From positions 1-64,000 of the forward strand of contig CAXARO010001009.1 of assembly GCA_963971305.1 (NCBI GenBank): a stretch of 64,000 nucleotides of DNA, read 5' to 3'. The translations under genes were made by a program, and so were the position numbers. Origin of the DNA: Arcuatula senhousia (lineage: Eukaryota > Mollusca > Bivalvia > Mytilida > Mytilidae). The notes beneath the pieces are model-generated. The model ran no database searches. It was not told the origin of the DNA and saw only the letters and a program-made list of their open reading frames with translations. Positions 1,680 through 36,198 of this stretch are shown here, in pieces. Position 1 is the stretch's first letter; each line of letters opens with the position of its first letter.

Positions 1680-1739
1680 CAGGTTCCAGTTGTAAATGAT
1701 CATTTCCATTTGATCAAATTGTAGAATACATCGGATAAT
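1680..1739 (+). repeat. Left terminal inverted repeat of giant transposon
   Basis: It starts CAGGTTCCAGTTGTAAATGA and is identical to the reverse complement of 36131-36190 for 53 bases, then has one G/A difference and six more matches. Further inward matching is patchy. Confidence 0.92.
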
Positions 1740-1974
1740 TTACAATAAAGCAGCAATTGGAGTGCTTTATTGATAACATGGTAAACGTGTTTGAATTAAT
1801 AGTTCCCGTAGAAGACACCGATATATCCACCACTGATGAGCAAAGAAAGTTAAACAAATAAAATGTCTTCAGAATAAAAAAAGAGCGTGCACAAGAATAT
1901 TATTTGAAGTCCGTTTATCATTTTTATGTGAAAGTTGGAAAGCTTCTTAGGCTTCTGCAAGTAAAGCAAACTGT

Positions 1975-2690
1975 GGAATCTTATCAGAAGCTGCTATCAC
2001 TTATCAGAACTCGCATAAGCTCAGTATGTTATAAGTCTAGATAAGGGATGAATGCTTATCGGAATTCTGATAAGAATAGCTGCAGCAAATGGTACTTTAC
2101 CAGAAATGTAATTAATATAGCAACAAAGGGGCTTTTATCAGAATTCTGACAAGACTAGCAACAAGCTGGACTTTACCAGAATTGTGATTAGAATAGCAAC
2201 AAAAAGGGAACTTTTATCAGAATTCTGATAAGGATAGCAAGGTACAGAACTTTAGCAGCAAACAAGACTTTTATCAGAATTCTGATAAGGATAGCAAGGT
2301 ACGGGACTTTAGCAGTTTACAAGAATTTTATCAGAATTCTGATAAGAGTAGCAAGGTACAGAATTTTAGCAGCAAATAAGACTTTTATCAGAATTCTGAT
2401 AAGGATAGCAAGGTACGGGACTTTAGCAGTTTACAAGAATTTTATCAGAATTCTGATAAGAGTAGCAAGGTACAGAATTTTAGCAGCAAATAAGACTTTT
2501 ATCAGAATTCTGATAAGGATAGCAAGGTACGGGACTTTAGCAGTTTACAAGAATTTTATCAGAATTCTGATAAGGGTAGCAAGGTACGGGACTCTTGCAG
2601 TTTACAAGAATTTTATCAGAATTCTGATAAGGATAGCATGGTACGGAACTGTAGCAACTAACAAGACTTTCATCAGAATTCTGATAAGGT
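1975..2690 (+). repeat. Left subterminal array of 18-bp palindromes
   Basis: There are eight perfect copies of TTATCAGAATTCTGATAA between about 2214 and 2630, spaced about 54-58 bp apart, with degenerate copies at each side (for example near 2060, 2139 and 2670). Spacers are themselves repetitive (GGATAGCAAGGTAC, GGGACTTTAGCAG, TTTACAAGAATTT). The motif is fully self-complementary, so a dimer could bind it. The mirror array is at 35180-35940 in opposite orientation. The likely role is transposase or accessory-protein binding near the ends (inference). Confidence 0.9.
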
Positions 2691-3998
2691 AACCTCAACA
2701 ATCTATAAAACCGTTTATTAAACCTCTCACATTATTGGAATTATCACAAAAGAGCAACCTCATACATGTATTTGTTGCCTTCTCATAAATCTAACAAAGT
2801 TTTGACAAAAACGTATTACAACATCATTTTCCATGGCCAAAAACAGAAAAGCAAAGTTATTTGGAATGAAAGTTCACTAGAAAAAGAAACTACAGCTACA
2901 CAAATTCCGATACAAGGATGTCAGAGTTAGAGTTTATGTTATTTATTGCCTACATAAACAACGGCACATTTTTATAATGCAAAACCAATAAGATATTCGT
3001 TCCCACAATTTATTAGTAATAACAAAGAAGCAAATTTTAACAATACAACAAATACAAACAACTTATAAACTTATAAAGATAGATTAACATTCTAATGCAT
3101 GCTCATACGTTTGGACATATGTTGTAATACAAAACAGACCAATAATAGCGATATTGCATATTTGTTCAAGTGGACTACAAAATATTTGCACAATAAATAT
3201 TTTAAATGTATTTTACCATCAAATACAATTTGCTAACAATTTAATGTCATACTGTTACATGAAACTATTTTTTGTCTTTTTTTATATAAACAAACGAAGC
3301 TTGGGACAAATTTCTCTGTAACTTGCATGATAAAGATGCTATTGTACACATTTCATTTCGTGACTCACCCTAAATTCTCTCACTCTTAATATGATAATAG
3401 GCACAACCTAAAATGGGACCCAGCTTAAGAAAATGTACGCGCTTAAGCATTAAAAGACAAAGCTAAATAAAAGTACTTAAAAGAAAAACAATTTGTTCTT
3501 TATAAAATGGAAGGATAAGGCACATATTTGTGTTTTGTTTGTATTCATGCAGTAATATATACACTTATTTATGATTTGATCATTTGAAAGACAAATACAT
3601 TTAAAAATTGCCAGTTTCAAAATTATAGCAAAGAAGTTGCAATGGGGCATTCAAATATCAAGTCTTATAAGGGCTTAGCAAAGAAAAATCACTCAAACAT
3701 TTGACACAAACGTGTGTGTTTTAAAGGGATTTTCAAAAAAAAAGTGTCATTCAATCTAAAGATTGATTTGATAAGAAATTTACATATTCATTGACCCGTT
3801 TAATCACTGTAAGCTGAACACTCGGACTCTTGGTCCCTATTGTATTAAAAAAAACAAAGATCTTAAAAGACTTAATATGTATGCATACAAATAGCAGAAC
3901 AGCTATTCAGTTACCACGATCTGACTTTATTGTGTTTACTCCACCCGCTTGAATATTTGTGAAGAAATGTATATTGACACGATCAACAGTAGAAACAA
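2691..3998. other. AT-rich stretch without recognisable gene
   Basis: I see no long open frame, no convincing exon and no repeat shared with other parts of the window. Many short A/T runs. It lies between the left palindrome array and the tandem-repeat element at 3999. Confidence 0.6.
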
Positions 3999-5295
3999 GA
4001 AATCTGTGAGCCAATGCTCACTAGTGATACCCCCGCTTTCACAACTATGACAGTAAGTATTTTGTCATTTGTGGGGTGGGGCATGACCTCCTTAAACCCC
4101 TCTATGGGACCAAATTATCTGTCTTACCATAAGAACTAAGAATATATATGATTATAGGGTGGGGATCTCAATAGTTGCTCAGTGGTTTTCGGGATATTAA
4201 GTATTTTGTCATTTGGGGGGGGGTGACCCCCTCAGACCCCTTTATGGTACCAAATGATCCGTCTTACCATAAGGACTAAGAATATATATGGTTATAGGGT
4301 GGAGATCTCAATGGTTTTCAAGATATTTGTACTTTGTCATTTGAGGGGGGTGGGGCATGACCCCCTCAAACCCCTCTATGGTACCAAATGATACGTCTTA
4401 CCATAAGGACTACGAATATATATGGTTATAGGGTGGGAATCTCAATGGTTTTTATGATATTAAGTATTTTGTCATTTAAGAGGGGTGGGCATGACCCCCT
4501 CAAACCCCTCTGTGGTAGCAAATGATCCGTCTTACCATAAGGACTAAGAATATATATGGTTATAGGGTGGGGATCTCAATGGTTTTCAAGATATTTAGTA
4601 TTTTGTCATTTGAGGGGGGGGGTGGGGCATGACCCCCTCAAATCCCTCTATGGTACCAAATGATTTGTCTTATCATAAGGACTAAGAATATATATGGTTA
4701 TAGGGTGGGGATCTCAATGGTTTTCAAGATATTAAGCATTTTTCATTTGAGGGGGGTGGGGCATGACCCCCTAAAACCACTCTCAGGTACCAAATGATTT
4801 GTCTTTACATAAGGACTAAGAATATATATGGTTATAGGGTGGGGGTCTCAATGGTTTTTGAGATATTAAAAAAAAATCAATTTTTGATATATTTGGAGGG
4901 GCGTGGCACGGCCCCTGGGGACCCCCTACATTTAAAAAATGATTAGGACCCACAACTCATAGGGTTCTATCATTGTGCAAAATTTGAACAAAATCTGTCA
5001 GGTATAACATGCATATAAGTACAAAAGTACAAAAAGCGGGACGGAAAATTCAATTTTTAAGATTTTTGGAGGGGCATGGCACGGCCCCTGGGGGTCCCCT
5101 ACATTTAAAAAATGATTAGGACCCACAACTTATAGGGTTCTATCATTGTGCAAAATTTGAACAAAATCCCTCAAGTATAACATGTATAAAGTACAAAAGT
5201 ACAAAAAGAGGGACGGAAAGTGGGACGGACGGACGGAATGACGGAACCTCGGACACAGGTAAAACAGTATACCCCCTCTTCTTCGAAGCGGGTAT
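3999..5295. mobile_element. MITE-like element with internal ~140-bp tandem repeats
   Basis: Six or so units contain GGGGCATGACCCCCTCAAAC, TATGGTACCAAATGAT and AAGGACTAAGAATATATATG, followed by two longer units with ATTTGGAGGGGCGTGGCACG. The left end has CTGTGAGCCAATGCTCACTAGTGATACCCCCG and the right end has a run of GGACGGACGG and CTTCTTCGAAGCGGGTATA, so the ends are complementary around the GCGGGTAT/ATACCCCCGC motif. A related element occupies about 52505-53690 and a short one 29930-30215. Non-coding. Confidence 0.75.
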
Positions 5296-6059: not shown

Positions 6060-6377
6060 TTAGTGGACAGGTGATCTATTTGCATCTAAATAGTAGTCCA
6101 GGTTTGAATAAATAAATTTAACAATTTCTTCATAATTTAAATTAACTTTGTCGGATGTAATTTGACACAACAATGAACATAAGATAAAATTGTAGTCCAG
6201 TTCTTGTACGTCTTTTTTGTCTAGAGTAAACATACTGTCGTTAATTGGTAATGGATGAAAAGTTTCATCCTCTATCTTGCCAATAGGTTTCTTGCAAAAC
6301 ACAAGCATGTCTTTGCCCTGTTGAACCGAGACATACGCCTTTCCATTCCATTCGGCTACATGAACCATTTTCTTTTT
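6060..6377 (-). CDS. Last coding exon of the minus-strand gene
   Basis: The exon starts after TTTTTTCTTTAG and reads KKKMVHVAEWNGKAYVSV, then FCKKPIGKIEDETFHPLP, and ends DYYLDANRSPVH and a stop. Length 106 codons with no internal stop. The pattern of tryptophan, glycine and alternating hydrophobic residues at the start suggests beta structure, followed by helices rich in Leu, Ile and Asp. No family recognised. Confidence 0.65.
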   Translation of the reverse strand, partial: KKKMVHVAEWNGKAYVSVQQGKDMLVFCKKPIGKIEDETFHPLPINDSMFTLDKKDVQELDYNFILCSLLCQITSDKVNLNYEEIVKFIYSNLDYYLDANRSPVH

Positions 6378-9300
6378 CTAAAGAAAAAATATACATGTAC
6401 ATAAATTAGGTTTTTATAAAGGACTCCTATTTTTGTCAAATAAATATAGGCTTTTATACCATAAATAAATTGAACACAAGTTTTTTTTTTTAAATAAGAC
6501 GTTGGTTCTGATATAAATTTATCTAAATGACGAACTTATCTAAATGGCTTATAGTTTAATATATGTTTCCGTGATGATTTTAATGTCTACCAATTTTGTC
6601 TTTGGTTTTATTTTTTGGATAAATGACATTTACATGTATTAACATCATTACTTTGTTCAAAACATAGCTAAAAATAACAAAATTACATACTTCTTCCTTA
6701 TTTGATGTGATGGAATGGCTGTCCTTCTGATCAGACTGAAATGTTAAGATAAAAGCTGATCACAAATAACATACATATAAGGGTATTCGTCTAGATAGAA
6801 TAGATAAATACATGTATGTGTTAACAAAATGTAAAGGACTGTGTTGTAAGAATTGTGTTAGAATGGTGTAACATTTCCGCTCGTTTTTTCAATAACAAGA
6901 AAAAAAAAATTTATGTGTGAGATTTCCCGTGTTTTTTCTTTGCTCGAGAATATGACCAAGTGGCCATTAAGTATGTGAAGGTTACTTGTTATTAAGTATC
7001 CATTCCAAATTGTAGGGTTTTTTTTTCTATGGTGTCACTTATTCTCAATTCTCAACTCTACAGTCATGATTAGACTAAGAGGTACACAAACTTCTTTTTA
7101 CACTTTATATTTACTTATTATATGTCTTACTTATAAATGCAGACGTTAGTATCCAAGGCGTGTGAAATGTTTGCTGTCTTTTCAAAAGGTATAATCCTAT
7201 AATACAAAATCATTTACCTGTACTGCCGAGCATCCAGGAACGGGGAAAGGTAAAGAACTTTGCTGTAAAAATAGACATGTCTTTACATTAGACAGAAGCA
7301 ACAACACAATAGATGTTAATATTTATGATATAAAACAATGATTCTATGTGTTCTACTTTTCAATAAAGATTAATTGTCCTTTAGTAAGGCCAATCTGCTT
7401 AGATTTTGGGTACTTTTTTTAAAAATACACTTTTAAGAAGTAAACACGTTCAGTGAACTATTTTGAGATTTTTGTTAAATGTTTTGAATCAAACAGTTAT
7501 TATAGGAAAACAGAGGTTATCTTTTTTACCATCAACCCCTTGTCTTTTTTACATCAAAAGAAATCATTATGTGTTTACTATTATCAACATAATGTTCTTA
7601 GCGTTATTCAAAATATGCTTACCTTATTTGGTGGTTCGCTTGAAATGGATACGTCTTTCTCCTTTATAGTATTTAGTGCCTAGAATGATATATAAAAACA
7701 GCAAAATTAAAAGCCACTCTGAACATTTCCTATAATATACAATTCATTATCAGTGATTATAGTAAAACTGTAAAGTAATCAAAAACCAACAAACTTAGCC
7801 ATTTTCTACTTTATTAATTCCTGGACGCTTCTCCAAAATAAATAAGATAAGTAGGTAAAAAGCTTTTTTTCTTATATAATTTCTGTAAAACAAGTATTAC
7901 CTGGTCTCCTTTATCTGTTCTATTCTTTTTTTTACTAGGCTCGGAAATGAAATCCTCCCTTATGGTTGGCTTGATTGTTCTCTTGTTTGTCTGAAAAATG
8001 TGACAATATTTCTAAGGCTGATACTTGTTGTTAAAACATAAATTAAATGATCAAAACAAAAACAAAACATTTACTAAAATTCTAAATTATCTTTTCCTAA
8101 AATATTTGAAATCATGGTATCATATATTTAACAGAATCAAACACTATCATTGACTACAGTTGTACGTTCTCCAATGAAGAGAAATCAATAATAAAGCCTA
8201 GCATCGCCTCTCTCACAGTTTCCAGCAAATATAATTGAACAGAAACTACAAATTCACAGAGTTATCACAAGATGGTATCATATTTTTTTTTATGATGTCA
8301 AACATAATAAAACGCTAACCTTTCAAAAACTGGTCAATAGGACGGCCATCAAGAGTAACAATGATAGTCCCATTATCTTCTTCTCTTACACTCCACCACT
8401 TAAACCCCATATGCCTCTTGGTTTTCTCATAATTAGCAAGCATGGAATCATCTGATAAAAATACAAATATTTGAAACATGTTATCATTAACATTAAAACA
8501 AGGCTGTTCCCGTATTCAACGACGTATTGAAATTGGCATTTTAAAAACATAGTGTTGTCCTTGTTTAAGAATATATTGTACTACATGTACATTTCTGTTT
8601 GTTGTTTAAAATTGTTTTCAACAGGTACATGTATACTATGTATATAGGCGTACAAGAGGAAATTATCGTGTCTGAGATAGAGTTAAGATCGAGTTTTAAG
8701 TTCTATTAACGTTTTTTTAGAGTTCCAGATGCGGTGGTGGATCAAGACGGAGCTGCGGGGGTTGGAACCCCCACCCTCTTTTCATTGGACAAAATTGTTA
8801 TTTTCACGCAGATTTTCGGCGAAATTAACCTGTAACCTCCCCCCCCCACACACACACGCACACTTTCTCGTGTTCTGTAGTCTGTAAGTAAAAATGACCT
8901 CCATCATTTATAGAGGCTGGTTTGAGATCGCATTTGTACTTGTTAGGACTGGACACAAGGCCGACATTTTTTGGATGAATTTACCATCTGACAGTGTGTT
9001 TAGTCAATATATTTTTTATGTATTCCAATTGTAGTGTTTTTAATTATTCTTTACAGTTTCTTAAAGGAGAAAAAACGCGAGGGTATATAAATCAATACAA
9101 CGTTTAAGTGTAACTTTTTAATTTTTAATTATTAAACATGCTAGCAAGGTAAAAAACTAAAATAAAAAAAATTCCGAGCTCTCACCCTGTTTTTGCCCAA
9201 AGTGTCCGACGAACGAGAATCAAATTCGGGTGGACCAACGAGAATGTTTATACATGTTATATATGCAGAATAAAGCATATTGCCAAAAAGGCAAGAAAGA

Positions 9301-9690
9301 TTGATCGAATGAAAATTTAAAACTATATCGTCCTTGTAAACAATTATTTCAGCTTGTTACAAGCACTGATATTACGCAACACATTGAGAAAAAAGTATAT
9401 ATATTATGCAAATGGCATGTATGAAGTTTGTTATATTTAAAATACAGATTTAAACCACTTTTAAGTAAGCAACATATTTATACAAACAAAATATCAAAAT
9501 TTGTCCGTTCTATTAAGTTAAAAAATGATGATAAATATTGATCCGACATGGCTCTTTTTGCTAAAATGGCTTAAAAAATACAACTTTCTTATAGAATAAA
9601 ATTACCTTCATCGTCCGAGTCACCCCTTTCACTGTTTACTTCTACTTCGTCTTCAAAATCATAGACGCATGCTCTAGAACTTGAATCCAT
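6060..9690 (-). CDS. Unrecognised multi-exon gene, divergent partner of the DUF7869 gene
   Basis: Exons read on the minus strand: 9606-9690 (start codon at 9690, in-frame TAG just upstream), 8320-8451, 7901-7990, 7623-7679, 7218-7262, 6691-6735 and 6060-6377 with the stop at 6060. Every boundary has GT/AG. Exon 1 encodes an acidic N-terminus (MDSSSRACVYDFEDEVEV then SDDE). Exon 2 encodes RHMGFKWWSVREEDNGTI and LDGRPIDQFLK. Exons 3-6 are short, phase-0, lysine- and serine-rich (30, 19, 15 and 15 codons). The last exon encodes about 105 residues including MVHVAEWNGKAYVSVQQGK. One problem: exon 2 ends in phase 1 but exon 3 reads open in phase 0, so a small exon is missing between them, or exon 2 ends the protein by reading through to a TAG two codons after the donor. 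I do not recognise the protein. As the second gene of a mobile unit it could be an accessory transposition or DNA-binding protein (inference only). Confidence 0.6.
8320..8451 (-). CDS. Second coding exon of the minus-strand gene
   Basis: It is bounded by TTTTTATCAG acceptor and AAAG|GTTAGC donor. It joins exon 1 in phase 1 to give SDDEDDSMLANYEKTKRHMG. The segment FKWWSVREEDNGTIIVTLDG looks like a small folded beta-rich domain. Reading on past the donor gives Gly then stop, so a ~73-residue product is possible. Confidence 0.6.
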
Positions 9691-22000: not shown

Positions 22001-25000
22001 TGTCAGCGCGACGTATACCCAATATACCTGCTTTATGAATGCATAGTATTAGTGCATATTTTGTCCTACGCGCAAATTTGAAATAAGCAAAAAGGTACCA
22101 AAGACAAAACCAGTAACACAAACGAGAACATCACGGAGAAACAGACAACATAAAAACACAAAACAACTGAATAGCAACAATTCGAACGTAGGTCGTAACG
22201 AGAGTGGACTCAGCTTTGGAAGAGGAGTAAGCAACGTTGCAAACATCTGAAAGATACAATATATTGTCTGGACTAATGTAAAATGCAAGCTGATCTAGTT
22301 TTATTTTCAATGAAACAAAGGTATCATACAGCACATTGACCGAAAGTTTTATTAATATATGCTTTTTTTCAGAAAAACTTTCATATCGTTGATTCTTTTT
22401 ATATCTGTGGCAACGTTCACAAGAGCAAGAAGGCTGTCCCTAGCAAAGAAATCACCGCTGTCCTTACCAAAGCGGATAACGCATGGATCGAGAGGTGAGA
22501 TAAAAAATTGTTTAAAAAATAAAACTTTTTTGCTTTAATTTTGCTCTAACTAAAGGTTCGTTTTTACGTGACCTTAAATTACACCTGTTATCATAACGTA
22601 CATTTGCATGTAAGGTTGACCACATAAATACACAGACAGACCTGAACATATGCGTGTACAGTTTAAGTTCGAATACAGTCTGAAATATATATATAAAAAA
22701 CGTCTTGCACGTATTTGTAAAAGTTAGTACCATTTAGAATTTTCTGGCCTACACAGCAAAAAGTATGGCCTTAATGGTCAAAGTTTAAGTTTTAAGAGCA
22801 GGTTCATACCCGAAGAAATAAGGTATATTTCAAATCGGTTGATAATATGCCCTTTATCAATAAAAGAAGCAGAAAATTATTAAGTTAATGAACACACTTG
22901 AAATAATATAAATCTAAATCATTACTGTTTTCACAGGTAAAATTTGTGAAGGCTTCATAAAGTCTTATATTAATGGAGCATGTGATAATGATCCAACTAA
23001 ACCAAAATACCGAATGCCAAGTGGTATTACCAGGATAAGATTGTTCGACCTCTACCGTTGTATCCATAAAGAGGACGGTTTAGAGAAGAGCAAATTTTAT
23101 GACATACTGAAGGAAAAGTTTCCCGATTTGGCATTTAATAAGGTACAAAAAGTTTTCTTTTATAAAAACAACAACCATTCAAACCCAATGTAATTTCTGA
23201 TTCACTGCTCTGCTTTCATAAATGTTTTGTAATATTATACAAGAAGAAAGAGATACAAGTAGGACATTAAAATATCACAAGTCCGAAAGAAATATAGACA
23301 AAAACAGTAAACACTATCGAAAACAACGCATCAAAGCAAACCCAAGCCGTAATGGGAGTGAACTAAGCTGCCCCGGAAGAGTAAGCTGGTCTTGCTTACA
23401 ATAGCGAGTTTATATAGTATGCATGTATAACGGCATACTTGAAGATTTTCTTAGTGCAAACAAATTAGTAAACTGTTTATGTTTGACTTGACGATCTTGT
23501 ATGATAAATCAGAACAGTATTAATTTGTAGAACATCATTGATATTTGCTTAATTCCTCTTTATTTCAAAACATTTACGCATAGCATCCTTAAACTTCATG
23601 CATACTCAAATGAGATATACATCAAATACACTGTACCTTTGTGTACCAGAGCGAATGCAGAAATTCAAACATACGAATTAATCGAGCCCAGAAAAAAACA
23701 AATACCCGGCTCCTATTTAACTAATATATACATGTATTTGTGTTTAAACTGTTCTTTTTGTTGACATATGTTTTTGCATACATTGTGTAGGAACTATCTC
23801 GTGGCGCATAACTTTATGATAGAGTTTGGTTTTTGGTTTGGTCTTTCAAAGGTTTGATTCAAGTGCACTGCATATAACATAACCAAATTATTTAATTGTT
23901 TTATTTATACATGTTTTTGGTATTTGGTAATAATTTATAATTTATTTTTTTAGACTCAGCGATTTACTAAATGTACCCAGTGCAATGATATTTGTGAGTT
24001 AATAGATGCAGAGACAGATCCTGTTAAGTTGCGTGAGCTAGAAGAACTTTTAGACTGCCATCACAGACAACAACAGTAATGTTTTCACTTTACGTCACTT
24101 ATATATATGGTTGGGGGTCACTAATCCACTTTTAAATTTTCATGAAAAAGGCCGCCTTCGGAAATATTGGGCCGAAAACCTTTTTTGTCGGATCGTCTTG
24201 TACATATTGTTATCTGGGGAAAGTGGGTATGCTGATAATCATAACGCACACAAAGTTATTCTAAGACTTGCCAATTTTCGGCTTTTGGTCGCCAAATTTG
24301 CCAAAAATTCAACCGTTTCCAGTCATAATTATACCTTGTTAACATTATATCTTTATTTTTGTGTATGGTTTAAGTACCAATAGGACATTCGGATGTCGGA
24401 AGTTAACACAAAATAAGCTATATACAGAGAACAAGACGACATTAAAACACAGAACATTAACCAATCTGAAACCAGCACCAGGAATCAACTTGGTAACAAA
24501 AGATTTGCCTCATATGTACAGGAAGAGAACGTGGTTTTTGTTTGTTTCACGCTTGATGTGTTGCAATAATTAAATTCTTAACAATATTGCAAAAAACTTT
24601 AGAGATATAGAAGTCCCATATTTGTATACAAGCAGAAAATATCCTACATAAAAGTTACAGAGTGAATTCAAATCAAATGTTTACAAAAAATAGGGTACAT
24701 GTAATCTGATCAAGTAACGATGCAATAAACATTGCAAAGAATTGAATCATAATGTCTTTCCTTTAAAGATTGGAGAGAGAAGCCTACTACGTTCGTCGAG
24801 GACTGGCAGAAATGAGACCATCAGAATATTTGTCTGTTATCTTAGATGGAATGGATCAGAATAAAACAGATATACCACACTATGTCAAATGGAACAATCC
24901 AAATGTAAGTAAAACAGAACGCATAATAACGTCACAAAAATTTACGTTGCAGTTTTCCGGGAAACTACATGTAACAGCCTCTTGAAATTTACCATGTAGC

Positions 25001-28000
25001 TTTCTCCTGTAGTACTATATGTATATGGTGTAGGGCGATTTTATACCAGAAACTTTTTAGACAAACAAACAGATGGACGGACAATTTCAAAAGGAAAGCA
25101 ATAGGCGGAATTCTGCATCCTCGATTCGGGGGCCTAATTATTGTTATTTGACACTTGGTTTATAGGATAGCTTATATTATAATCTCATCTCTTTACGCGA
25201 TACAACCTATACGTAAACAAGATTCGCAATGGAAGACAGTCAGACTCACTTTGTAATTTGTAGGCGAAATATGTCCTGTCATACTTATAAGGCACTCGGT
25301 CTAGTCAGCACTTGTCAAAAGTTATATAAAAGCTTTTTATTGCGAATGAAAAACATATTAAAAAACACAGTGGTTACATTGTATTTATATTAGTGATGTT
25401 TGTGACTGCGAATGTACTTCGCTACCATTGTGTACATGTAATGTAAGTGTAAGTCATGTAATGTTTATAATATATATATAATTACTGCGTTTTCTAGCAC
25501 AGTCTTTTTTAAACGACCCCTTATCTTTAGATATGCTTCTAACATGAAATTTTGTTTGTATATTCTACAGGGAGCTGGTGCCCTCAAGTTGAGGACGCAT
25601 GTTACAGGTTGTATAGCCCATGGACGGGGGAAGCACTATTTCATCGACTATAATCAGATCCACCATGACACAAACTTGACATTGTCTTGTTTACTTAAAG
25701 TATTACAAGCCGAATCAACGAATGGCAAATTACCACCAACACTATTTATTCAGTTAGATAACACATGCAGGTAGTACTTTTTTAACCATACGGATATTTT
25801 AATTCTTTAAGGTAGATGGGGTGTCTATTACTGAGCATCTTTTTTGCACATCTATCATAACTTTAAACTTTATTATGCTAGCTATACTAATTGATTTCTA
25901 TTGGGCTTGGTAAACATCAAAATTGAAAATTACAACAATTTTTTTACAAATTACACTATTTTCACGTACTTTTTAAAGGGAGATAATTTGTATAGAAATA
26001 ATAGGGGAAAAACACATTTTCCACTTTTTCCAAAATTTTGATGGTGAACTTTATTTTTATTTAGTATATTTAAAAGTCCCTACAAAACAAAGATATACAC
26101 AAATTTTAAGAAAATCTGATGGTGAACTTTTAATTTTATTATCCAGATTTAAAGTACAAATCTAGGGCTAACTGTGGCCAAAATTTAAGAAAATTCTATG
26201 GATAAATATTTAGACACCCCATCTACCTTAACTGACAGTTATATTCAAAGTATATCGTAATTATACAAACCAAAAATAAAACCAACATATTTTTGCCATC
26301 TTGCATGTAAAATGTACTTTAAAACAACAAAACTGTCCAGATATACATTTGTAAAATGGTGTAAAATCTTTATCAGTAAATTGTTGTCCTGAAATGAACT
26401 TTATCTGTCTGCATTCATGGGTCTTATACACTACAATATAAAGTACTGATCCGCAACATTTGATCATTCACATAATTGCAATGTGTTTCAAACAAAAGCA
26501 TGACGTTATTGAATACAGTCTTGATTTATTGATACTGGGTTTTTTGACATGCATTAATGATTACTTTCTCCTGTTTATAATGCTAGATAAAATTAGTAAA
26601 GATTCTATACAGTCCGCCATAAGTTAAGCATCCACCCTATTTATTTTTATTAATACAATTTCAAAGTAAAAGCTGACTTTAAGATATGTTTTAAAGATGT
26701 ATCCTTAAAACACCCATTTAGATATATTGTTACACCAAAAGGTATGCGCCAAGAGATAGAAATCTAAAGTGACACTTCAAACAGAACATGATTTAACGTC
26801 TCAAATGGTTAAAACTTTGACGAAAACTTCAAATTTTGTGTAGTTTAAGTTGTGTGTTCTTTAAATTGGCTTGGTGTCCTACAGTAAAACATATTGTTAT
26901 AACATTTTCATTAAAAAGACCAAACAAAACCAAGCACAAATGGTTAAAAAGGGGATAAATCTTTTCTTGTCAAATTTTAGGCCGAAAACTGAAAGAAGGA
27001 TGCTGTCCCTATAGGAAATGGAATTGGTGTGGATTTTTTTTTTGCGGTTGAGACTTCAAATTTAATGTCGTATTAATTTGTGCGTGCAATGTTGTTTGTT
27101 CTCTGTCCGACAAATCACTTTTCTGAAATCTCATTTTCTGTTACATGTAAAACCCATTTTTGAAAGAAAGTGTCATTTCATTACTTAAAAACAAGTTCAC
27201 TGACATGTTTTCCTTCTTGGGACAAAACTGTTACTTCCAGACAATTTTGATGACAGAAATGTCTTAAAAGTTTCTGGAAACAGATTTTGCTCATTTTTTT
27301 GAGTTTTACGAAAAAATTACATTTTCTGAAAAACCATAAAAATTGTTTTTTGGCCTTACATCTCTGATAAACCCTATTAAACAAACCAATTTAATCATCA
27401 TCGAAATGTATAAGTTTTATTTCCATGCGGATTTAAGGAGAAATCAGCATTTGGAAATAAACATGGTCAGAAAGTCGGGGGGAAAGCAAACATTTTTAAG
27501 CAGGCCCTAAAAAACTGCAAAACACATTAAAAAAACTCATATGTGTCGTTTGATGTGATTGGTTAAAGAAGTGTCACGTGTAAGATTCTTTGAAAAAAAG
27601 ACTGGCTTGAATTCTCTACTTCTTCTATTGCTCTCCGAAACTTGAGATCGTGATCGGGTTTAATGTCACAATATTTTGTTCCAATATTTTAAAAATCTTT
27701 CTTTATTTTCAAATTTTGTAGGATGTAAAATTTTTCTAAAATCCAAAGGTTCTTGTGTGCAAAAGATCGGAATATTTCAATAAAATATAAAAAGAGGGTG
27801 CCATTTTAAAATGTGGTTATGCTTAACTTTTGGCGGACTATACATTATTGTAGGTAATGATCAAGGCGACACCAAAAACAAATTAGATCTTTAGAGTTTA
27901 GATATGTTACTTAAATATTAATAATTGAATATTTGCACGCTTTCCGACCCCTACTATTCAGAATGTTAAGGTAATACATTTTTAATTGATTTCTTGCAGA

Positions 28001-31000
28001 GAAAATAAGAACAAATATTTTATTGGAATGATCGGATACCTTGTTAAGAAGAAATTTGTTAAAGAGGTATATCCTTGTAATTTTATCGTGAGTGAAGGAA
28101 GCAGAGGTACCAATGGGGTATCCGAATGTCAAAAGTCCGAAAGGGCAGAGACAAAACCGGTAAACACCAACAAGAACGGGACAAAAACAGACAACATGTA
28201 AAACATGGAAACACAAAAATAACTGAATATCAATCAACAACGCGAACTTCAGTCGAAACGAGAGTGAACTCTGGTGCTCCGGAAGAGTAAGCAGTTCCTG
28301 CTTGTGTTATATGTTATCGTATCTACAGACATGTCGGATTCGTAAAAGACCATAAAACGATTATGTATGCCTTATAAATATATATATATCAACCTTATAG
28401 CTTATATTATTGGAATGTTCAAATACGTAATTGTGATAAAAATTGCACCCCAGATATCTCGATAGTGATTTTGAATTTCATATCTCTGATACATATATCT
28501 TACAACATGTACACCCATTAATTTATTTTTCAACAAAAGACAAATAACATGCATCATGTTTACACAGTTTAATCAGTTGATTATTAGAGCGTTGTTGTAA
28601 ATATTGTATTTGTAAACTATTTTCAGGCTTGGATATCCTTCCTCTTAGTTGGTCATACCCATGAGGATGTAGATCAGTCTTTTTCAAAGATCAGTCACCA
28701 TCTTAGCAAAACTGATGCCATTTCTTTGCCTGAGCTTATGTCGGCAATAACACAATCTCAAAAGCCTACCCCGACAGTGGAAGCATTACGAAGTGTTTGG
28801 GACATATCGTCGTGGCTTGAACCATTTATTAACCAGATACATAATGTAACCTTTCCAAAACTGTACAGGTAACCTAATTTGACAACTCATAAATTGGGAT
28901 AAGGTTCCAATATGGTCACCTAAACTTTCATAATAGTTAATAGAATTAGCTGCCCCCTTTTCGTGATTTAACGAGTAAACCTTACAGTGCTGTTAAAAAA
29001 TTACAAAAATCAAACAAGTTCTAGAAATATCAAACGAACAAAACCGTCACGGGAGATAAGGTGTTCGCAAAGATTCAATACCGAAATCATAACTCTAACA
29101 ATAATTAACATACTTAACTACATGTTATCTTTGGTTTTTCGCTTAGTAACCATACTGTATATTCTTGCTTGGTTAAAGATTGAGTTCAGACTTAAAATAC
29201 ATAGTATCACGGTGGTAATGTACATATGAGTGAATCAAGAGTAACCTCAAATCGGTCGTTTTTATTCTGAAGCTTTATATTTGTAAGTATTGTGGTTTGT
29301 ATTTCTAGAATTTTTAATGATGGAGTTGGTCACACAACTCTTCATTATAAATCCCTGTCTACAGAAGACGAGTGGCATCCAAAGGCCAACGAAAAGCCAC
29401 TGGAAATTTTCAAGATGCAGTCAGGGAACCAGATGATACCTCCTGGAGAGCCAGACTTGGTACTTCAGGAGCTTGACGAAGACTTTGTCAGTGATCTGAA
29501 GCGGTAATTACAAGTTCAATATAGAAAAAAAAACGTATTGAAACAAATCCCAACCACTACAAATCGACAGACCATGCAGATACAGCACAAATATTAAACA
29601 CGTCATTTACATCCATATATGCTTTTTATAAAGCTTAATTTCTGTAAAAGATCTAAGACATCACCCTTGTCCTTGTACTTCGCAGAGAAGGCGACAGCAA
29701 AGAGGTACCAATGAAGCATTCGAATGTCAAAATTCCTAAAAGACAAAAAGTAAACCAAACACGAACGAGAACAGCACGAAGAAATAGACAACATAAAACA
29801 CATAAAAACAGCTGAATTTCAAACAGCAACACGAAACAAAGTCGTAACGAGCTTGGACGCATACTTTTGGAAGGTAGTTTTAGCATTTTAACAATCTGAC
29901 GTATTATATGGGATGCCCGTCTGGAATATATAATTATACCCTCGCTTTGAACTTCGGAAGAAAAGGGGGTATATTGTTTTACCATTATCCGTTTGTACGT
30001 CCGTTTACATTATTTCCGTCACAGTTGTCTAAGCATTTACATGACTCAGAAGTCTGATTTTGGCATAAAGCTTTATCATATAGTACCATATGGTGTATAC
30101 TGCTTTTTGCTCCTAGGCAATATACTTCCTATTTACGTTATACTAAGGTTTTAACGCAAGGCATAATTTTTGGAGCGGGAGTATCACTAGTGAGCAGCTC
30201 GCAGATTTACTTGTTATTTTAATGACATTAGCGGTGTGTTTAAAAACTAAAAAACTATTGTGCTGTGAGCACAATATAGTATCTGTATATTTACATGCAG
30301 GTTCAGCATTTAAAAATGATATTTATCTTTTTTTTCCTTACAGATCTGTACAGAGGGATTTCCACCTGGCAAAGTTCAACCAGGAACGAATGTCATGGTG
30401 GAATAAATTCCTTAATAAGCCTATTGAGGAACCAACAGAAAGAGAAAGAGAGTGGCCACTTACTCGTTTATCAAACTACCAGGAAATCCAGCAACATTCC
30501 AGTCTGGGAGAAAAAGAACAGGAACTTGTCCAAAAATATCTTGATAAACGAAACGAATTTAAAGAGGTATGAGCTATTTGTTTGGTATTAATATATTTTT
30601 GTTAGATATATATATATACATGTATTAGAAATAAAATTATTGGCTTTACAAATACATGTATGCAACAAATTAGATAAAAAAAAAGAAATAAAAAAAGGTA
30701 AACTTTACGATTTATATTTCCTTTGTGCTTTGTTTGAGGCATACAGTATTAACACCTAATAATTGAAATCTGTTTTATTTTTGTTGAAACTTAAATGTCT
30801 TTGAGTTTCTTTTCAATTTCGAAAACTATAAATTGGCAGCAAAACTAACTAAGGCACTTGCGTCTTCTGTTGCCGCTGGTAATCTGGAAGCTGTTCAATT
30901 CTGACAATGCATGACTTTTGGTTGGAATTAAATAAAAGTACAAAAATACAACAAAGTTCTAGAATAGATCAAGTCTGACACCCTTTATCAGCGAAACGGT

Positions 31001-32290
31001 TAAGGACAAATTATCATTCTATGAAGACTTGAAGAGTACCATAGAAAACAAAATTGGATCCACAAATGATGCAAAACTTGATTCAATTACATGTATATTG
31101 AAGATCTTGTATATATTTTTTACACGTGGAAACACTGACTGTAAATTTTATAGAAATTCAAACTAATAAATAATGAAAGGTTACGTTACAACGTGCTATA
31201 TTTTATTGACACACAACTGTGATAAAAATGATATGTCCAGCTTTAGTCATAAATTATTGGAACTCATTGGCGAATTGAATGTTTGTATTTTGATGTTTCA
31301 TTGGCGTGTAAAACCGTTGACCGCGGTCTCACATTTTTAACATGAAGCGCTAGCGGGCTTTATTACAAATGTGCTACGGTCAACGGTTTTACAGGCCTAT
31401 GAAACATCAAAACATTAAATTATCATATTTGTAAGGTAATGACCTGCTTACGGTCATGTGATGCAAGTGGCATTTCATTGAGTCATGAAAGACGATTACA
31501 TTGGGCAATTAACAAATAGAATAAAGCATTTTAATTATATGCACGGTAAATTTAATTATTGATCAATCGAAAAAAAAAAGAATTTCCCCCCGAAAGTTCA
31601 TCAATTATAAAATATTAGGGACATATCAGAGTGGTCCATTCCATATGGCAGACTGTCTGCTACAAAACTTTGTACTTATAATTTATCTCTTAAATTAGAG
31701 CGGAGAGGTCAATGTCAGACACTTGTTGATATGTTAGTATCTACATGGCCCTACAAAACCTACTCGTACCGTAAGTTATGGGTTTCAAGGGTCATCAGGA
31801 CAGTTTGAACTTTGAACTAAATATAAAATGTCTACATCACAAAAACAAAAAGGTCACAATCTTAATTTGAATCTAAAAAGTTATAATGATTTAATGAACG
31901 TAAAATTAACGTTTGTGCTTTCCTGATTGGAAAATGCATGATAGGTCGTACTGTACATCAATACCATTTTCATTGCAGGTTTATACTAATCAACCAGAAC
32001 CAGGATGTTCTCGTGGAACACACCAGGACAGAAGGAGATTCATTAGTGGACAAATGATTATAGTTAAATCCTCAGAATCAACAGCTTTACTTGGAAGAAT
32101 ACTGTCACAAAAAGGGGCCACTCTTAATGTACAGATATATGAAAGAAAAGGACAAATGTTCTTAGCATCAAAAGATAACAGAGAGGTTGACATTAGTCTA
32201 TGCTTCCCAGGTTCCTTCGAACTTACTAAAAATGGTGATCTGCCTAGAGTTGAAAAAGTGAAACTGCAGACCCATAGTTTAAAATTATAG
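9936..32290 (+). CDS. DUF7869-type zinc-finger / RNase-H-like protein, candidate transposase
   Basis: Thirteen exons: 9936-10038, 20283-20378, 21228-21489, 22373-22494, 22937-23142, 23954-24075, 24769-24904, 25571-25770, 28000-28066, 28627-28868, 29309-29503, 30344-30566 and 31979-32290. All junctions are GT/AG and all phases agree, giving 2286 nt (761 aa plus stop). An in-frame TAG 18 bases upstream supports the start. Domains: acidic/serine-rich N-terminus (1-66); Cys-rich segment (CGCLHDC, 90-96); ICRKTF at 152-157 and HGSRGK at 191-196; CTQC finger with later CHH (270-300); core with LDGMDQNKT (D330), HVTGCIAHGRG (359-369), QLDNTCRENK (D412) and GHTHEDVDQ (E451, D452, D454); basic, charged C-terminal region. 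This order is that of DUF7869 proteins, common in cnidarians and molluscs. The acidic residues on predicted strands suggest an RNase-H fold like that of DDE transposases. Alternative: a domesticated host gene. The inverted ends around it argue for a transposon gene. Confidence 0.8.
10950..11320. repeat. Tandem duplication with poly-A tracts in intron 1
   Basis: Two ~165-190-bp copies share AACGGAATA, AAAACTAGTTTAATT, CTCGGACAAAATTT, GCAATACCTGAT and CTTTCAGTTTTTAAATAAAA (about 11025-11150 and 11185-11310). Each is preceded by an AAAAC-rich run. The two differ at several bases. Function unknown. Confidence 0.75.
12210..12365. repeat. Short MITE-like copy with GCGGG-type ends
   Basis: It runs from AAAGCGGGGGTATCTGCATG to ACTTTGTAAGCGGGTGTATA, with GACGGACAGGGAC in the middle, resembling the ends of the element at 3999-5295. 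Too degenerate to place ends exactly. Confidence 0.4.
13570..14575 (-). mobile_element. MITE family A copy in intron 1
   Basis: One end reads ACAAGAGGCTCCCAAGAGCC then TGAATCGCTCACCT (13573 on); the other reads CCCTTCGGGTTAGGTGAGCT (about 14550-14571). The copy contains a GGACGGCGGACGC run and the ATTTTTAGCAACGGTGGCC body motif of the family. A Penelope-like 3' fragment is embedded in it (13740-14015). Confidence 0.75.
13740..14015 (-). mobile_element. 3' fragment of the Penelope-like retroelement
   Basis: About 95% similar by eye to 46640-46880, the region just downstream of the reverse transcriptase at 46928-49684 in its own orientation. Shared landmarks include GGATCGCAATGGTCCTGACT, TGGCGCCAAACCTCCCTCTT and ACACAACATAGTTGTGAGAC. 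A third, more diverged copy is at 57525-57640. No reverse transcriptase here, so it is a truncated copy; the open frame across it is not a gene. Confidence 0.7.
14780..15240 (+). pseudogene. LINE ORF2 C-terminal fragment and 3' tail
   Basis: The translation at 14807-15130 reads LTKFRISDHSLEIEVGRYKK, then VCKICKILDDEHHFFFTC. This C-x2-C...DE-HF...C pattern is the C-terminal zinc knuckle found after the reverse transcriptase in Jockey/CR1-type LINEs. It is followed by an AT-rich tail ending CCGTCAGGGTTTTATGTTTT. Reverse transcriptase and endonuclease are absent, as expected of a 5'-truncated copy. Confidence 0.8.
15241..18650. other. Intron 1 sequence with no recognised gene
   Basis: A MITE remnant ends near 15420 with GGTTCCGCCACTGCC. 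A G-run-rich low-complexity stretch is at 16640-16790 (GGGGGGGTCTAGTATATACC and variants). Otherwise mixed-composition sequence with no exon I could support. The ORFs at 17373-17576 and 18146-18409 show no protein-like features. Confidence 0.5.
18660..19290. repeat. ~160-bp tandem repeat in intron 1
   Basis: Three imperfect units share GTAAACTTTTTTGTAAGA, GCTAGGCATCTGATATTTGG, ATACAGACAGTTGAGG, CAACTGTCACCATGC and GTGACCCTGACCCCATTTT. They are preceded by a (GGC)n run at 18672-18690 and TCTCGCCTGCGACGAATAGT. The open frames across it on both strands are by-products of the repeat. Confidence 0.8.
21228..21489 (+). CDS. Exon 3 of DUF7869-type gene: Cys-rich N-terminal region
   Basis: It enters in phase 1 after TATTGAAAG and leaves in phase 2 at GCAG|GTAGGT. 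It encodes RRWKALDAKSVQQQ, then ENCGCLHDCYKKFSVNEV and ends RVEQRNIC. The CxC...C pattern followed by a hydrophobic helix and then a Cys-Arg-Lys at the next junction is what N-terminal segments of this family look like. Confidence 0.8.
21650..21920 (+). repeat. SINE-like 3' portion in intron 3
   Basis: It contains GTGCCACGCTTCATGCACGT, GATCACCTCGTGGACCGCC and the tail AGCGTTAAAGGACGTAAAAC followed by ACCAACTCACTCACT. The tail matches the 3' end of the SINE at 63437-63710 (GGGCGTAAAACACCAACAAA). No tRNA-like head seen, so a truncated copy. Confidence 0.6.
22085..22240. repeat. Dispersed repeat E, copy 1
   Basis: It has AAGGTACCAAAGACAAAACC, ACAAACGAGAACATCACGG, AAACAGACAACATAAAAACA and GTCGTAACGAGAGTGGACTC. 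The family consensus starts GGTACCAATG and ends in a GGAAGAGTAAGC box. Antisense open frames here are translations of the repeat. Confidence 0.7.
23225..23405. repeat. Dispersed repeat E, copy 2
   Basis: Diverged copy with AGTAGGACATTAAAATATCAC, CAAGTCCGAAAGAAATATAG, AAAACAGTAAACAC and AATGGGAGTGAACTAAGCTG then CCGGAAGAGTAAGC. Confidence 0.6.
23954..24075 (+). CDS. Exon 6 of DUF7869-type gene: CxxC finger
   Basis: It encodes TQRFTKCTQCNDICELID and ends LEELLDCHHRQQ. The cysteines at residues 270 and 273 with C298/H299/H300 could make a zinc site. Exon 7 continues with LEREAYYVRR, a helix that leads into the core. Confidence 0.8.
24375..24495. repeat. Dispersed repeat E, copy 3 (partial)
   Basis: Begins AGTACCAATAGGACATTCGG ATGTC-like and continues AACAAGACGACATTAAAACA; strongly diverged and missing the 3' box. 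Confidence 0.4.
24769..24904 (+). CDS. Exon 7 of DUF7869-type gene: first core acidic residue
   Basis: It encodes RPSEYLSVILDGMDQNKT and DIPHYVKWNNPN. The hydrophobic strand ending in D330 (LDGMD) is the probable first catalytic or metal-binding acidic residue of an RNase-H-like core (inference from family pattern). Confidence 0.85.
25571..25770 (+). CDS. Exon 8 of DUF7869-type gene: central core
   Basis: It encodes LKLRTHVTGCIAHGRGKHYF, then HHDTNLTLSCLLKVLQ, and ends PPTLFIQLDNTC. D412 in the LFIQLDN strand is the second conserved acidic residue. Codon 416 is split with exon 9, which continues RENKNKYFIGMIGYLV. Confidence 0.87.
25811..26227. mobile_element. 417-bp MITE with TTAA duplications
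   Basis: Perfect inverted ends GGTAGATGGGGTGTCTA (25811) and TAGACACCCCATCTACC (ending 26227), each flanked by TTAA (25807-25810, 26228-26231). TTAA targets are typical of piggyBac and Kolobok elements. No ORF; non-autonomous. It sits in intron 8. Confidence 0.88.
26610..27840. mobile_element. 1.2-kb non-autonomous element with TA duplications
   Basis: Left end CAGTCCGCCATAAGTTAAGC and right end GCTTAACTTTTGGCGGACTA are inverted repeats with few mismatches, flanked by TA on both sides. The CAGTCCGCC...GGCGGACT end type and TA target fit a Tc1/mariner-derived element. No transposase frame is seen inside. Confidence 0.8.
28095..28305. repeat. Dispersed repeat E, copy 4 (best preserved)
   Basis: Carries GAGGTACCAATGGGGTATCC, GAATGTCAAAAGTCCGAAAG, GACAAAACCGGTAAACACC, ACAGACAACATGTAAAACAT and GTCGAAACGAGAGTGAACTC then GGTGCTCCGGAAGAGTAAGC. 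It starts just after the 28000-28066 exon. Confidence 0.7.
28627..28868 (+). CDS. Exon 10 of DUF7869-type gene: GHTHEDVDQ motif
   Basis: It encodes AWISFLLVGHTHEDVDQSFS and then an amphipathic, helix-rich region up to ITFPKLYR-like NVTFPKLYR. The acidic cluster E451/D452/D454 after the VGHTH strand is the hallmark that most strongly identifies the family. Confidence 0.87.
29695..29885. repeat. Dispersed repeat E, copy 5
   Basis: Carries AGAGGTACCAATGAAGCATT, CGAATGTCAAAATTCC, AATAGACAACATAAAACACA and GTCGTAACGAGCTTGGACGC. Its antisense ORFs resemble those of copy 1 because they translate the same repeat. Confidence 0.65.
29930..30215. mobile_element. Short MITE related to the 3999-5295 element
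   Basis: It has ATTATACCCTCGCTTTGAAC, AAAGGGGGTATATTG and, at the other side, GGAGCGGGAGTATCACTAGT then GAGCAGCTCGCAGAT, matching the ends of 3999-5295 in reverse order. It lies in the intron before exon 12. Confidence 0.55.
31288..31412. repeat. 125-bp fold-back repeat
   Basis: The arms TTTTGATGTTTCATTGGCGT...AAAACCGTTGACCG and CGGTCAACGGTTTT...GGCCTATGAAACATCAAAA are nearly complementary over about 36 bases, with a ~50-bp centre. Foldback MITE in intron 12. Confidence 0.8.
31979..32290 (+). CDS. Exon 13, C-terminal exon of DUF7869-type gene
   Basis: It opens in phase 0 after CATTGCAG and runs 103 codons to TAG. It reads VYTNQPEPGCSRGTHQDRR and then a beta-rich region (GQMIIVKSSES, LLGRILSQKGATLNVQIYER) that could be a small barrel-like domain. 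ATTAAA-type polyadenylation signals lie downstream (about 32375 and 32764), unproven. Confidence 0.8.
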   Translation, partial: VYTNQPEPGCSRGTHQDRRRFISGQMIIVKSSESTALLGRILSQKGATLNVQIYERKGQMFLASKDNREVDISLCFPGSFELTKNGDLPRVEKVKLQTHSLKL

Positions 32291-34508: not shown

Positions 34509-34810
34509 AGTACACAGGAAAAAAAGTAACGCATGTTTTACGTATGAAAAACATATGTAAAACGTATGGTCATAACACATGTTAAACGTAGAAATAGTAC
34601 CACGCATGAAAAACATATGGTAAATTATAAATTGAAGATATTTGTTAAACGCATGTTTTACATGTGTTATAAAACATGCGAAAAACGCATATAATTCTAC
34701 AGGTGTTTTTCATGCGTTTGTCAAAACGCATGTAAAACATATGAAAAACATGTGAAAAACGCATGTTTTTTGAAACATGCGAAAAACATGTATTACTATT
34801 TTTCCTGTGT
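34509..34810. mobile_element. ~300-bp MITE built of ACGCATG/CATGCG motifs
   Basis: Inverted ends CACAGGAAAAAAAGTAA and TTACTATTTTTCCTGTG flanked by TA. The interior is a dense mix of AACGCATG, ACATATG, ACATGCG and AAAAACATG motifs on both strands, so nearly the whole element can pair with itself. Confidence 0.7.
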
Positions 34811-35179
34811 AATATAAGAAATTTAACTGCAGTAACAGCTATTAATGCACGATAATGCACCGGATGGTGACTTTTCGGTATTTTTAATTGATCATTGAAA
34901 AAATAATACACAGACTCTAATTTATTCACAAACTGGCATTAAAATCAATCATCATGACGAACTATTTTACATCACACTATGCAACATATGAATTGTTATG
35001 CAATAGACAACAGGGTGAATCTAAGTATACATCTAGAACAGATATTCGAGAATAGATCTCTCGTATGAAAATTCAACGGCGATGCCAGTTATTCAAAATA
35101 AATAGCCCAACCATCACAGGTAAAAATATGAGCCTGCAATATGGCAGAGATTTGATAAAAGGTCTCATGGATTGATAAA

Positions 35180-35940
35180 GTTACCTTATTAGAATTCTGG
35201 TAACATGTCTCGGTGGTTGTTAAGCTTATCACAATTCTGATAACGTCTCGTACGCTGCTATTTCCTATCAGAAGTCCCGTTTGTTGCTATTCTTATCAGA
35301 ATTCTGATAAAGTCACGTACGCTGCTATTTCCTATTAGAAGTCCCGTTTGTTGCTATTCTTATCAGAATTCTGATAAAGTCACGTACGCTGCTATTCTTA
35401 TCAGAATTCTGATAAAGGTTACGTTTGTTGCTATTCTTATCAGAATTCTGATAAAGGTCCAGTCTGTTGCTATTATCAGAATTCTGATAAATGTCCCGGT
35501 GGTTGTTATTCCTATCAGAATTATGACAAAGTCACGTACGCTGCTATTCTTATCAAAGTCACGTACGCTGCTGTTCTTATCAGAATTCTGATAAAGGTCC
35601 CGTCTGTTGCTATTCTTATCAGAGTTCTGATAACGGCCCCGGTTGTTGCTATTCTTATTAAACCATACTACAAGAATCTTATCATAATTTTTATAGGAAT
35701 CTATTCCCTTTCTATGCTTATTTGATAGTGTTGGGTAGGTAGGTAATTGTCACCTAATTCCATTAGCTTATCAGAATTCTGATAAAACGTCCAATTATCT
35801 GCTCCGTAGGCTTCTGTTCTTATCAGAATTCTGATACGCATTCATCCCCTTTCTAGGCTTATCTGAGAGTGCTTATGTCAATGAGTTTACCAGAATTCTG
35901 ATAAGTATTACCAGGTGAAAATATCAGAATTCTAATATAG
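35180..35940 (-). repeat. Right subterminal array of 18-bp palindromes
   Basis: Seven perfect TTATCAGAATTCTGATAA copies (about 35299, 35361, 35399, 35437, 35475, 35578 and 35768) with several degenerate ones. Spacers such as GTTGCTATTC and GTCACGTACGCTGC are the reverse complement counterpart of the GGATAGCAA spacer start in the left array, so the array is inverted relative to the left one. Confidence 0.9.
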
Positions 35941-36130
35941 TTTACAGGTTTACTTGCAAAAGCTTTAGGGCCTTTTCAACTTTCACCACAGAATTCAGAT
36001 ATTACTAGTCTTGTGCACATTCCATTATTTCTAAAAATCAAGACATTTTATTGGTTCTGTTTTCTTTGCTCATCAGTGCTGTATATGTCTTATATATATA
36101 TTATGCAATATAATTAGATATTTGTTTTAG

Positions 36131-36190
36131 ATTATCTGATGTATTCTACAATTTGATCAAATGGAAATGATCATTTACAACTGGAACCTG
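36131..36190 (-). repeat. Right terminal inverted repeat of giant transposon
   Basis: It ends CATTTACAACTGGAACCTG, the exact complement of the left end, with one mismatch in 60 bases. Further inward, 35945-36000 (TTACTTGCAAAAGCTTTAGG and TTTTCAACTTTCACC) is a degenerate complement of 1925-1985. Confidence 0.92.
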
Positions 36191-36198
36191 TTTTGAAA
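36191..36198. repeat. Right 8-bp target-site duplication of the giant transposon
   Basis: TTTTGAAA, against TCTTGAAA on the left; followed by ACTATATAAGATATTTC, which continues the interrupted MITE. Confidence 0.8.

Follow-up and report, generated by a model that had tools for sequence, protein, structure and literature searches.

Target-site duplications of 8 bp are found in the Novosib, Merlin and P superfamilies of DNA transposons. In Zisupton a Ulp1 protease domain is combined with the transposase, and Pfam holds a model for KDZ; hAT transposases carry a large insertion domain between the second aspartate and the glutamate, together with a hAT dimerisation domain; and Merlin/IS1595-type and Tc1/mariner-type transposases have a D-E spacing in the 30s, mariner duplicating TA. 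Among very large mobile units, Teratorn duplicates TTAA and the captain gene of Starships encodes a tyrosine recombinase. Published accounts give Teratorn, of the piggyBac superfamily, a length of 180 kb, and describe Starships as likewise very large. Zisupton has 8-bp duplications and inverted ends, and 8 bp is also usual for hAT, according to PMC12730594. Polintons reach 40 kb (PMC6431247), and the same 2019 review singles out the enlarged En/Spm elements of Chondrus crispus, of 16-20 kb. For molluscs, the survey in PMC10294476 used profiles of 17 known superfamilies to detect DDE elements; its repeat annotation places Novosib, Zisupton and Merlin in cephalopods and hardly elsewhere, and its ORF-based survey credits bivalves with at least one element of every counted superfamily.

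Here we describe a locus in a window of 64,000 nucleotides (the whole stretch of DNA analysed) from the bivalve Arcuatula senhousia. Positions 1680-36190 most probably (probability about 0.8) constitute a 34.5-kb class II DNA transposon, apparently full-length and intron-rich, for which a DUF7869 protein would serve as its own DDE transposase. This reading rests on the inverted ends, an 8-bp target-site duplication, three related empty sites, palindrome arrays and an 11-exon DUF7869 open reading frame. The lineage may be one not yet described, as judged from searches of open-access literature.

Termini and target site

The element is bounded by paired inverted ends in which 59 of the 60 outer bases match, beginning CAGGTTCCAG... 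at 1680 and finishing ...CTGGAACCTG at 36190. A first-pass annotation of this DNA had reported just such 60-bp ends with one mismatch; its description was incomplete in that it missed a longer, imperfect inverted similarity, running on to about 400 bp (on the left side to about 2100), and the palindrome arrays. A search of the window for the outer 23 bases, allowing up to three mismatches, finds them at two places only (0.00 expected). The 18-bp palindrome TTATCAGAATTCTGATAA recurs close to both ends, 13 times on the left and 14 on the right, against 0.14 matches expected in the window, and the inner nine copies on the left are spaced at 57 bp.

1672..1679, no strand: left target-site duplication TCTTGAAA, from flank comparison and empty-site alignment
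1680..1739, + strand: left terminal inverted repeat, outer 60 bp, starting CAGG
2001..2687, no strand: left subterminal array, 13 matches to TTATCAGAATTCTGATAA (at most 3 mismatches, 8 exact)
35186..35938, no strand: right subterminal array, 14 matches to TTATCAGAATTCTGATAA (at most 3 mismatches, 7 exact)
36131..36190, - strand: right terminal inverted repeat, outer 60 bp
36191..36198, no strand: right target-site duplication TTTTGAAA, from flank comparison and empty-site alignment

The target-site duplication is 8 bp long with one substitution (TCTTGAAA on the left, TTTTGAAA on the right), as the first-pass annotation had read it. The same site is present in three related repeat units of the window, as TCTTGAAA in two and TCTTAAAA in one, so that a C-to-T change in the right copy, TTTTGAAA, is probable. 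For an empty-site test the element and one 8-bp copy were removed, 120 bp of each flank were joined, and the product was aligned within the window. The joined flanks aligned, ungapped at the junction, with units 1095-1318 (197/225, 88%), 48317-48088 (198/234, 85%) and 47813-47585 (189/234, 81%), in agreement with the earlier claim that the flanks rejoin when the element is taken out; with 600-bp flanks, the junction was spanned by two of the nine matches listed. These three empty sites are related repeat units and not allelic. Because the flanks rejoin and the duplication is common to both sides, they point to a single insertion event.

Gene content

Two divergent spliced genes had been proposed, and both were recovered: the exons on the + strand lie within 21227-32290, and those on the - strand, within 9690-6060, come from a hand-fitted model with no homologue as a check.

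21227..32290, + strand: DUF7869 putative transposase gene, 11 exons found, 695 open codons plus stop
21227-21489, 22373-22494, 22937-23142, 23954-24075, 24769-24904, 25571-25770, + strand: DUF7869 gene, exons 1-6
28000-28066, 28627-28868, 29309-29503, 30344-30566, 31979-32290, + strand: DUF7869 gene, exons 7-11
24845..24847, + strand: first putative catalytic aspartate codon (ILDGMD)
25757..25759, + strand: second putative catalytic aspartate codon (QLDN)
28663..28665, + strand: putative catalytic glutamate codon (GHTHED)
6060..9690, - strand: divergent accessory gene, 8 exons, 283 aa, hand-fitted model
9690-9606, 8451-8320, 8245-8166, 7990-7901, - strand: accessory gene, exons 1-4
7679-7623, 7262-7218, 6735-6691, 6377-6060, - strand: accessory gene, exons 5-8

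Two exons of the + strand gene score 79.8 and 102 bits against DUF7869 (PF25273; gathering cut-off 26). The gene model has a weak first border, and no 5' exon carrying the start codon was found. The element's own protein has a putative catalytic triad, D-81-D-38-E, whose two aspartates and glutamate are kept among its relatives; a relative 64% identical to it is predicted to adopt an RNase H fold, on which the triad sits, and the 50 VIA-align structural matches listed are all retroviral integrases or DDE transposases, Mos1 and SETMAR among them. Given the triad kept in relatives and the integrase-type predicted fold, DUF7869 is probably a DDE transposase. A PDB sequence-profile search returned two rows at chance level. 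In a viral structure library, only an XkdF-like phage protein and a record of a giant-virus helicase matched at E <= 0.001, two entries of a heterogeneous list that is given no weight here.

The joined coding sequence of the accessory gene has a higher coding score than 162 of 163 non-exon ORFs of at least 60 codons, and its last exon alone exceeds 157 of the 163; exon 8245-8166, scoring below the null median, is the least certain. None of 468 candidate homologues of the 283-aa protein reached E <= 1, Pfam returned one row (MobC_2, E 0.075, below its cut-off), and a PDB search one row at chance level (E 0.15). The predicted fold of the last exon alone has a pLDDT of 41.8.

Pfam scans in six frames, covering most of the element (E <= 1 in some parts, E <= 0.1 in others), recovered the DUF7869 exons as a positive control and gave DUF7869 as the sole match above a curated cut-off, although short, intron-split exons may be missed; the scans left out 1680-2998 and about 30001-30298 on the - strand, 9601-9690 and 30003-32300 except two ORFs on the + strand, and the last 90 bases. 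Rows below threshold were RING (E 0.21, far below its cut-off) and Sigma_reg_N, MobC_2 and DUF7189 (E 0.025-0.13). The scanned parts yielded no further transposase domain. A reading based on viral hallmark genes was rejected, since nothing but DUF7869 exceeded its Pfam cut-off there; the first-pass annotation had seen no hallmark genes of Polintons, Teratorn or Starships, and within the limits set by short exons the scans likewise give no sign of them. An Rfam search gave no match, and NCBIfam two unrelated single-member rows only. Part of the 34.5 kb consists of repeats and probable nested insertions, and the bulk appears to be mostly introns, spacer and some nested repeats, with no recognisable cargo genes.

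Relatives of the DUF7869 protein

DUF7869 is spread across animals, a liverwort and algae, is multicopy in some genomes, and occurs in six bivalve genera. Alignment A1 comprised 60 of 72 relatives matched. A tree was built from 123 of 173 sequences (172 proteins and the element), after removal of those in which GHTHE was missing or was preceded by fewer than 130 residues, and it places a bivalve group nearest to the element's protein. No Pfam transposase model matched any of 60 DUF7869 relatives (E <= 0.1). Three queries against viral contigs yielded no confirmed relatives. Among genome contigs, 15 stretches gave two relatives, each on a contig catalogued under a Bacteroidetes MAG that is probably eukaryotic contamination; neither has an obvious element boundary among the inverted repeats listed, so they neither support nor oppose the transposon reading. 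No paper using the term 'DUF7869' was found in the open-access literature searched, and of 36 matches there to the motif GHTHED the 20 listed are unrelated.

Discussion

Among described systems, Zisupton/KDZ shares the 8-bp duplication and inverted ends with the element, and its combination with Ulp1 resembles some amphioxus DUF7869 proteins, which also carry that protease domain; it differs in that the KDZ model matches 0 of 60 DUF7869 relatives (Pfam, E <= 0.1), and GHTHED is not known as a KDZ motif. The 8-bp duplication is shared with hAT too, but there is no hAT Pfam match among the 60 relatives, and the element's D-E spacing of 38 residues leaves no room for the large hAT-type insert. 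That spacing belongs to a compact DDE core like those of the Merlin/IS1595 and Tc1/mariner types, from which the element departs in its 34.5-kb length and in the lack of IS1595 or mariner Pfam matches among the 60 relatives. Novosib is alike in its 8-bp duplication. Polintons/Mavericks, Teratorn and Starships are likewise very large; in the scanned parts, however, the element has no DNA polymerase B, capsid or retroviral-type integrase domain as in Polintons, no piggyBac or herpesvirus domain as in Teratorn (and its duplication is TCTTGAAA), and no tyrosine-recombinase domain as in Starships. The En/Spm elements of C. crispus are likewise oversized class II elements but, as the review describes them, have 4-5 ORFs and belong to CACTA, whereas the present element is larger, yielded two genes and has a different transposase.

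It is tentatively proposed, at somewhat under even odds, that DUF7869 represents an undescribed eukaryotic DDE superfamily, present in animals (sponges among them), in liverworts, in green and other algae and in plankton, and marked by 8-bp duplications and palindromic subterminal binding arrays, whose bivalve elements exceed 30 kb, are intron-rich and carry a second, lineage-specific gene. Little more than one chance in three attaches to a reading that is compatible with the transposon itself, in which Repbase already has this superfamily by a different name (Novosib, Zisupton/KDZ, Merlin or a hAT offshoot) and size is the sole oddity. The 8-bp duplications of Novosib, Merlin and P agree with it, as do those of Zisupton and, usually, hAT (PMC12730594), and a cross-reference to DUF7869 may simply never have been made; the Pfam results and the D-E spacing oppose it, while leaving room for distant kinship to KDZ or the IS1595 type. 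A weaker objection is that the mollusc repeat annotation has Novosib, Zisupton and Merlin nearly confined to cephalopods, against DUF7869 in six bivalve genera; its weight is reduced because the ORF survey of the same paper (PMC10294476), as far as its counts extend, gives bivalves every superfamily.

We consider it improbable that a host DUF7869 gene and its neighbour were captured as cargo by an element that truly depends on a different transposase, encoded elsewhere. An intron-rich, host-like gene with bivalve proteins as its nearest relatives would suit such capture; yet the DDE triad of the DUF7869 protein is complete and sits on a predicted fold of integrase type, the scanned parts hold no rival transposase domain, and the family, found across animals, liverwort and algae, has multiple copies in some genomes. 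Less probable still, and disfavoured, is a composite or chance structure, be it an assembly join or two short end fragments of a small element that happen to lie on either side of host DNA: only one copy is seen and its size is large, but rejoining flanks with a common duplication indicate one insertion event, the outer ends have no further copies in the window, and the same palindrome arrays stand at both ends.

If the element is indeed a transposon mobilised by its DUF7869 protein, the N-terminal part and a CxxC...H metal site of that protein could bind DNA, with dimers seated on the subterminal palindromes and the outer ends. The RNase H core (D-81-D-38-E) would then cleave at the CAGG ends, which would be joined to target nicks staggered 8 bp apart; a C-terminal beta-barrel might help to hold the DNA, and the - strand product would be an accessory factor. 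The ends and Pfam uphold the first-pass interpretation of one transposon with intact ends and DUF7869 as its hallmark gene; the cut-and-paste route that it also named, as opposed to another DDE route, we only infer.

Should DUF7869 prove to be a DDE transposase, a family of 'unknown function' in animals, plants and algae would gain a probable role and three testable residues, and the annotation of DUF7869 genes currently taken for host genes could be revised. Surveys using profiles of known superfamilies, such as that described in PMC10294476, would miss the family unless one of the 17 is DUF7869 under another name. The element is not the largest DDE-linked unit, published accounts giving 40 kb for Polintons and 180 kb for Teratorn; those units carry viral genes, whereas in this one two genes were found.

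Ends and insertion site

The element at 1680–36190 is real. Its inverted ends and 8-bp flanking duplication had been proposed in the first-pass annotation and stand as described there, and the outer 23 bases of the ends have no other occurrence in the window at up to three mismatches.

Features of the element and its insertion site
1680–36190: element, both ends inverted, outer 60 bases with a single mismatch
Adjoining both element ends: flanking 8-bp duplication, left TCTTGAAA, right TTTTGAAA
2001–2687: left palindrome array, 13 matches with at most 3 mismatches
35186–35938: right palindrome array, 14 matches with at most 3 mismatches
21227–32290, + strand: DUF7869 gene, 11 exons, single open frame, 695 codons
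9690–6060, − strand: second gene, 8 exons, 283 codons plus stop
1095–1318: related empty site, 88% against the fused flanks
48317–48088: related empty site, 85%
47813–47585: related empty site, 81%

When the element was removed and the flanks fused with a single copy of the 8 bases, the product aligned gap-free at the junction to three units of its own host repeat family in the window, longer flanks also being compared; the interrupted repeat does rejoin, as had been claimed. Because these units are related sites at other loci, they give the pre-insertion sequence order and not a polymorphic allele.

The earlier account was correct for the outer 60 bp and missed what lies further in. The inverted similarity, interrupted by indels, reaches roughly 400 bp inward (bases 71–420 of both ends align with a score of 103.6, whereas the best of 100 mononucleotide shuffles gave 20.6), and its inner part already contains the first copies of a palindrome, TTATCAGAATTCTGATAA, that is arrayed at both ends. 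Exact copies account for 15 of the 27 array matches; one additional match lies outside the element, the expectation for the window being 0.14. Similarly distant inside both ends, the arrays fit putative protein-binding sites for assembly of a transposition complex.

Gene content

The two divergent spliced genes of the first-pass annotation were recovered, the − gene by a hand-fitted model. All internal exon borders of the + gene are GT-AG; its first listed exon has a weak upstream border, and an exon carrying the start codon was looked for and not found. Pfam DUF7869 (PF25273) matches two of its exons (E 2.6e-22 and 3.9e-29), and a 722-aa Mytilus edulis relative, P0001, is 64% identical across the entire query and matches all 11 exons from its residue 27 onward (tblastn). 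Modelling of this relative predicts an RNase H fold, the element protein has a putative D-81-D-38-E triad, and DUF7869 is probably a transposase family.

One − gene exon (8245–8166) is weak, and no relative of the protein was detected. Scored on + gene codon usage, the joined sequence outranks 162 of the 163 non-exon window ORFs compared with it. Position and apparent intactness are what suggest an accessory role for the product.

Relatives of the DUF7869 protein

Further bivalve relatives come from Solemya, Magallana, Mercenaria, Sinanodonta and Mya; other animal sources are acorn worms, amphioxus, echinoderms, nemerteans, sponges and one sea anemone, and non-animal sources are Chara, Heterosigma, the liverwort Riccia and an alga under the label Tetstr, read here as Tetraselmis, with many metagenome contigs besides. 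These relatives point to a bivalve as the probable host. Riccia sorocarpa contributed 17 and Tetstr 7 of the 111 rows of one search. Three amphioxus relatives (P0023, P0025, P0027) have DUF7869 fused to a Ulp1-type protease domain, a fusion also known from other transposases. Two relatives (L001, 1–5162, and L002) lie on contigs assigned to Bacteroidetes MAGs, with eukaryotic contamination as the probable source; a gag-like-looking ORF adjoins that on L001.

In a 123-sequence FastTree phylogeny the element protein pairs with P0001 (support 0.987), nested among bivalve proteins plus one metagenome protein (0.972). Other Mytilus and Solemya copies are distant from it, a pattern that is transposon-like and part of which gene families could yield.

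Mechanism and classification

Ends, duplication, empty-site order and open genes are established by the sequence. The element would work like a DDE DNA transposon. We regard it as an apparently full-length DNA transposon with DUF7869 as its DDE transposase (probability roughly 0.8). The DUF7869 protein would bind the palindromes and ends, draw both ends together, cleave at CAGG and insert the element into target nicks staggered by 8 bp; binding, cutting and insertion of this kind are the most likely mechanism, presumably by cut-and-paste rather than another DDE route. The bivalve grouping of its nearest relatives also fits DUF7869 as a host gene carried as cargo; that fit makes cargo slightly likelier and the transposase reading slightly less so, and we consider cargo very improbable.

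Membership of Polintons, Teratorn, Starships and hAT was rejected, the tested features failing in each. Among 60 relatives, Pfam gave neither a KDZ match at E ≤ 0.1 nor an IS1595-type one; a distant kinship with KDZ/Zisupton or Merlin is conceivable. A 2019 review (PMC6431247) puts enlarged En/Spm elements at 16–20 kb, the Pack-MULEs it cites at no more than 7 kb and Polintons at a maximum of 40 kb, against 34.5 kb here. That DUF7869 represents a new superfamily is a tentative proposal; that the element belongs to a known superfamily under another name, such as Novosib, Zisupton/KDZ or Merlin, is conceivable and somewhat less probable. A mollusc study (PMC10294476) bears on both: its repeat annotation nearly confines Novosib, Zisupton and Merlin to cephalopods, whereas in its ORF survey each superfamily counted is represented in bivalves by one element or more. 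The study is ambiguous on this point, which renders a new superfamily slightly less likely and a known one slightly more so. The largely open-access literature searched yielded no mention of DUF7869, PF25273, GHTHEDID or GHTHEDVD. The finding is of value chiefly because it marks DUF7869 as a probable transposase family, for which an apparently complete element with ends and duplication offers test material.

Size, probable nested insertions and neighbouring repeats

Exons of both genes together occupy less than 3 kb of the 34.5 kb, and about 3 kb is sequence in tandem or repeated within the window. The element probably holds several nested insertions, among them 3994–5288, 13769–14572, 25807–26231 and 29952–30215; given these and the repeats, the unit that moved may have been somewhat shorter than 34.5 kb, unless the insertions were already inside. 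The segment at 25807–26231, in a + gene intron, has inverted 21-base ends starting TTAA; it is probably a MITE nested there, about 425 bp long and flanked by TTAA duplications. Oppositely oriented pieces of one repeat family lie at 3994–5288, a stretch taken up mostly by tandem units of roughly 134 and 173 bp, and at 29952–30215; 31288–31412 (125 bp) is self-complementary at 80%. Nested copies of repeats also found outside the element make up 13769–14572, including stretches related to repeats close to the insertion site and a part 97% identical to 46637–46883. Long minus-strand ORFs at 46316–49684 resemble retroelement proteins in appearance and have no Pfam match at E ≤ 0.01. Large tandem arrays, with units of about 154/323 bp and 306 bp, adjoin the element at 38171–43848.
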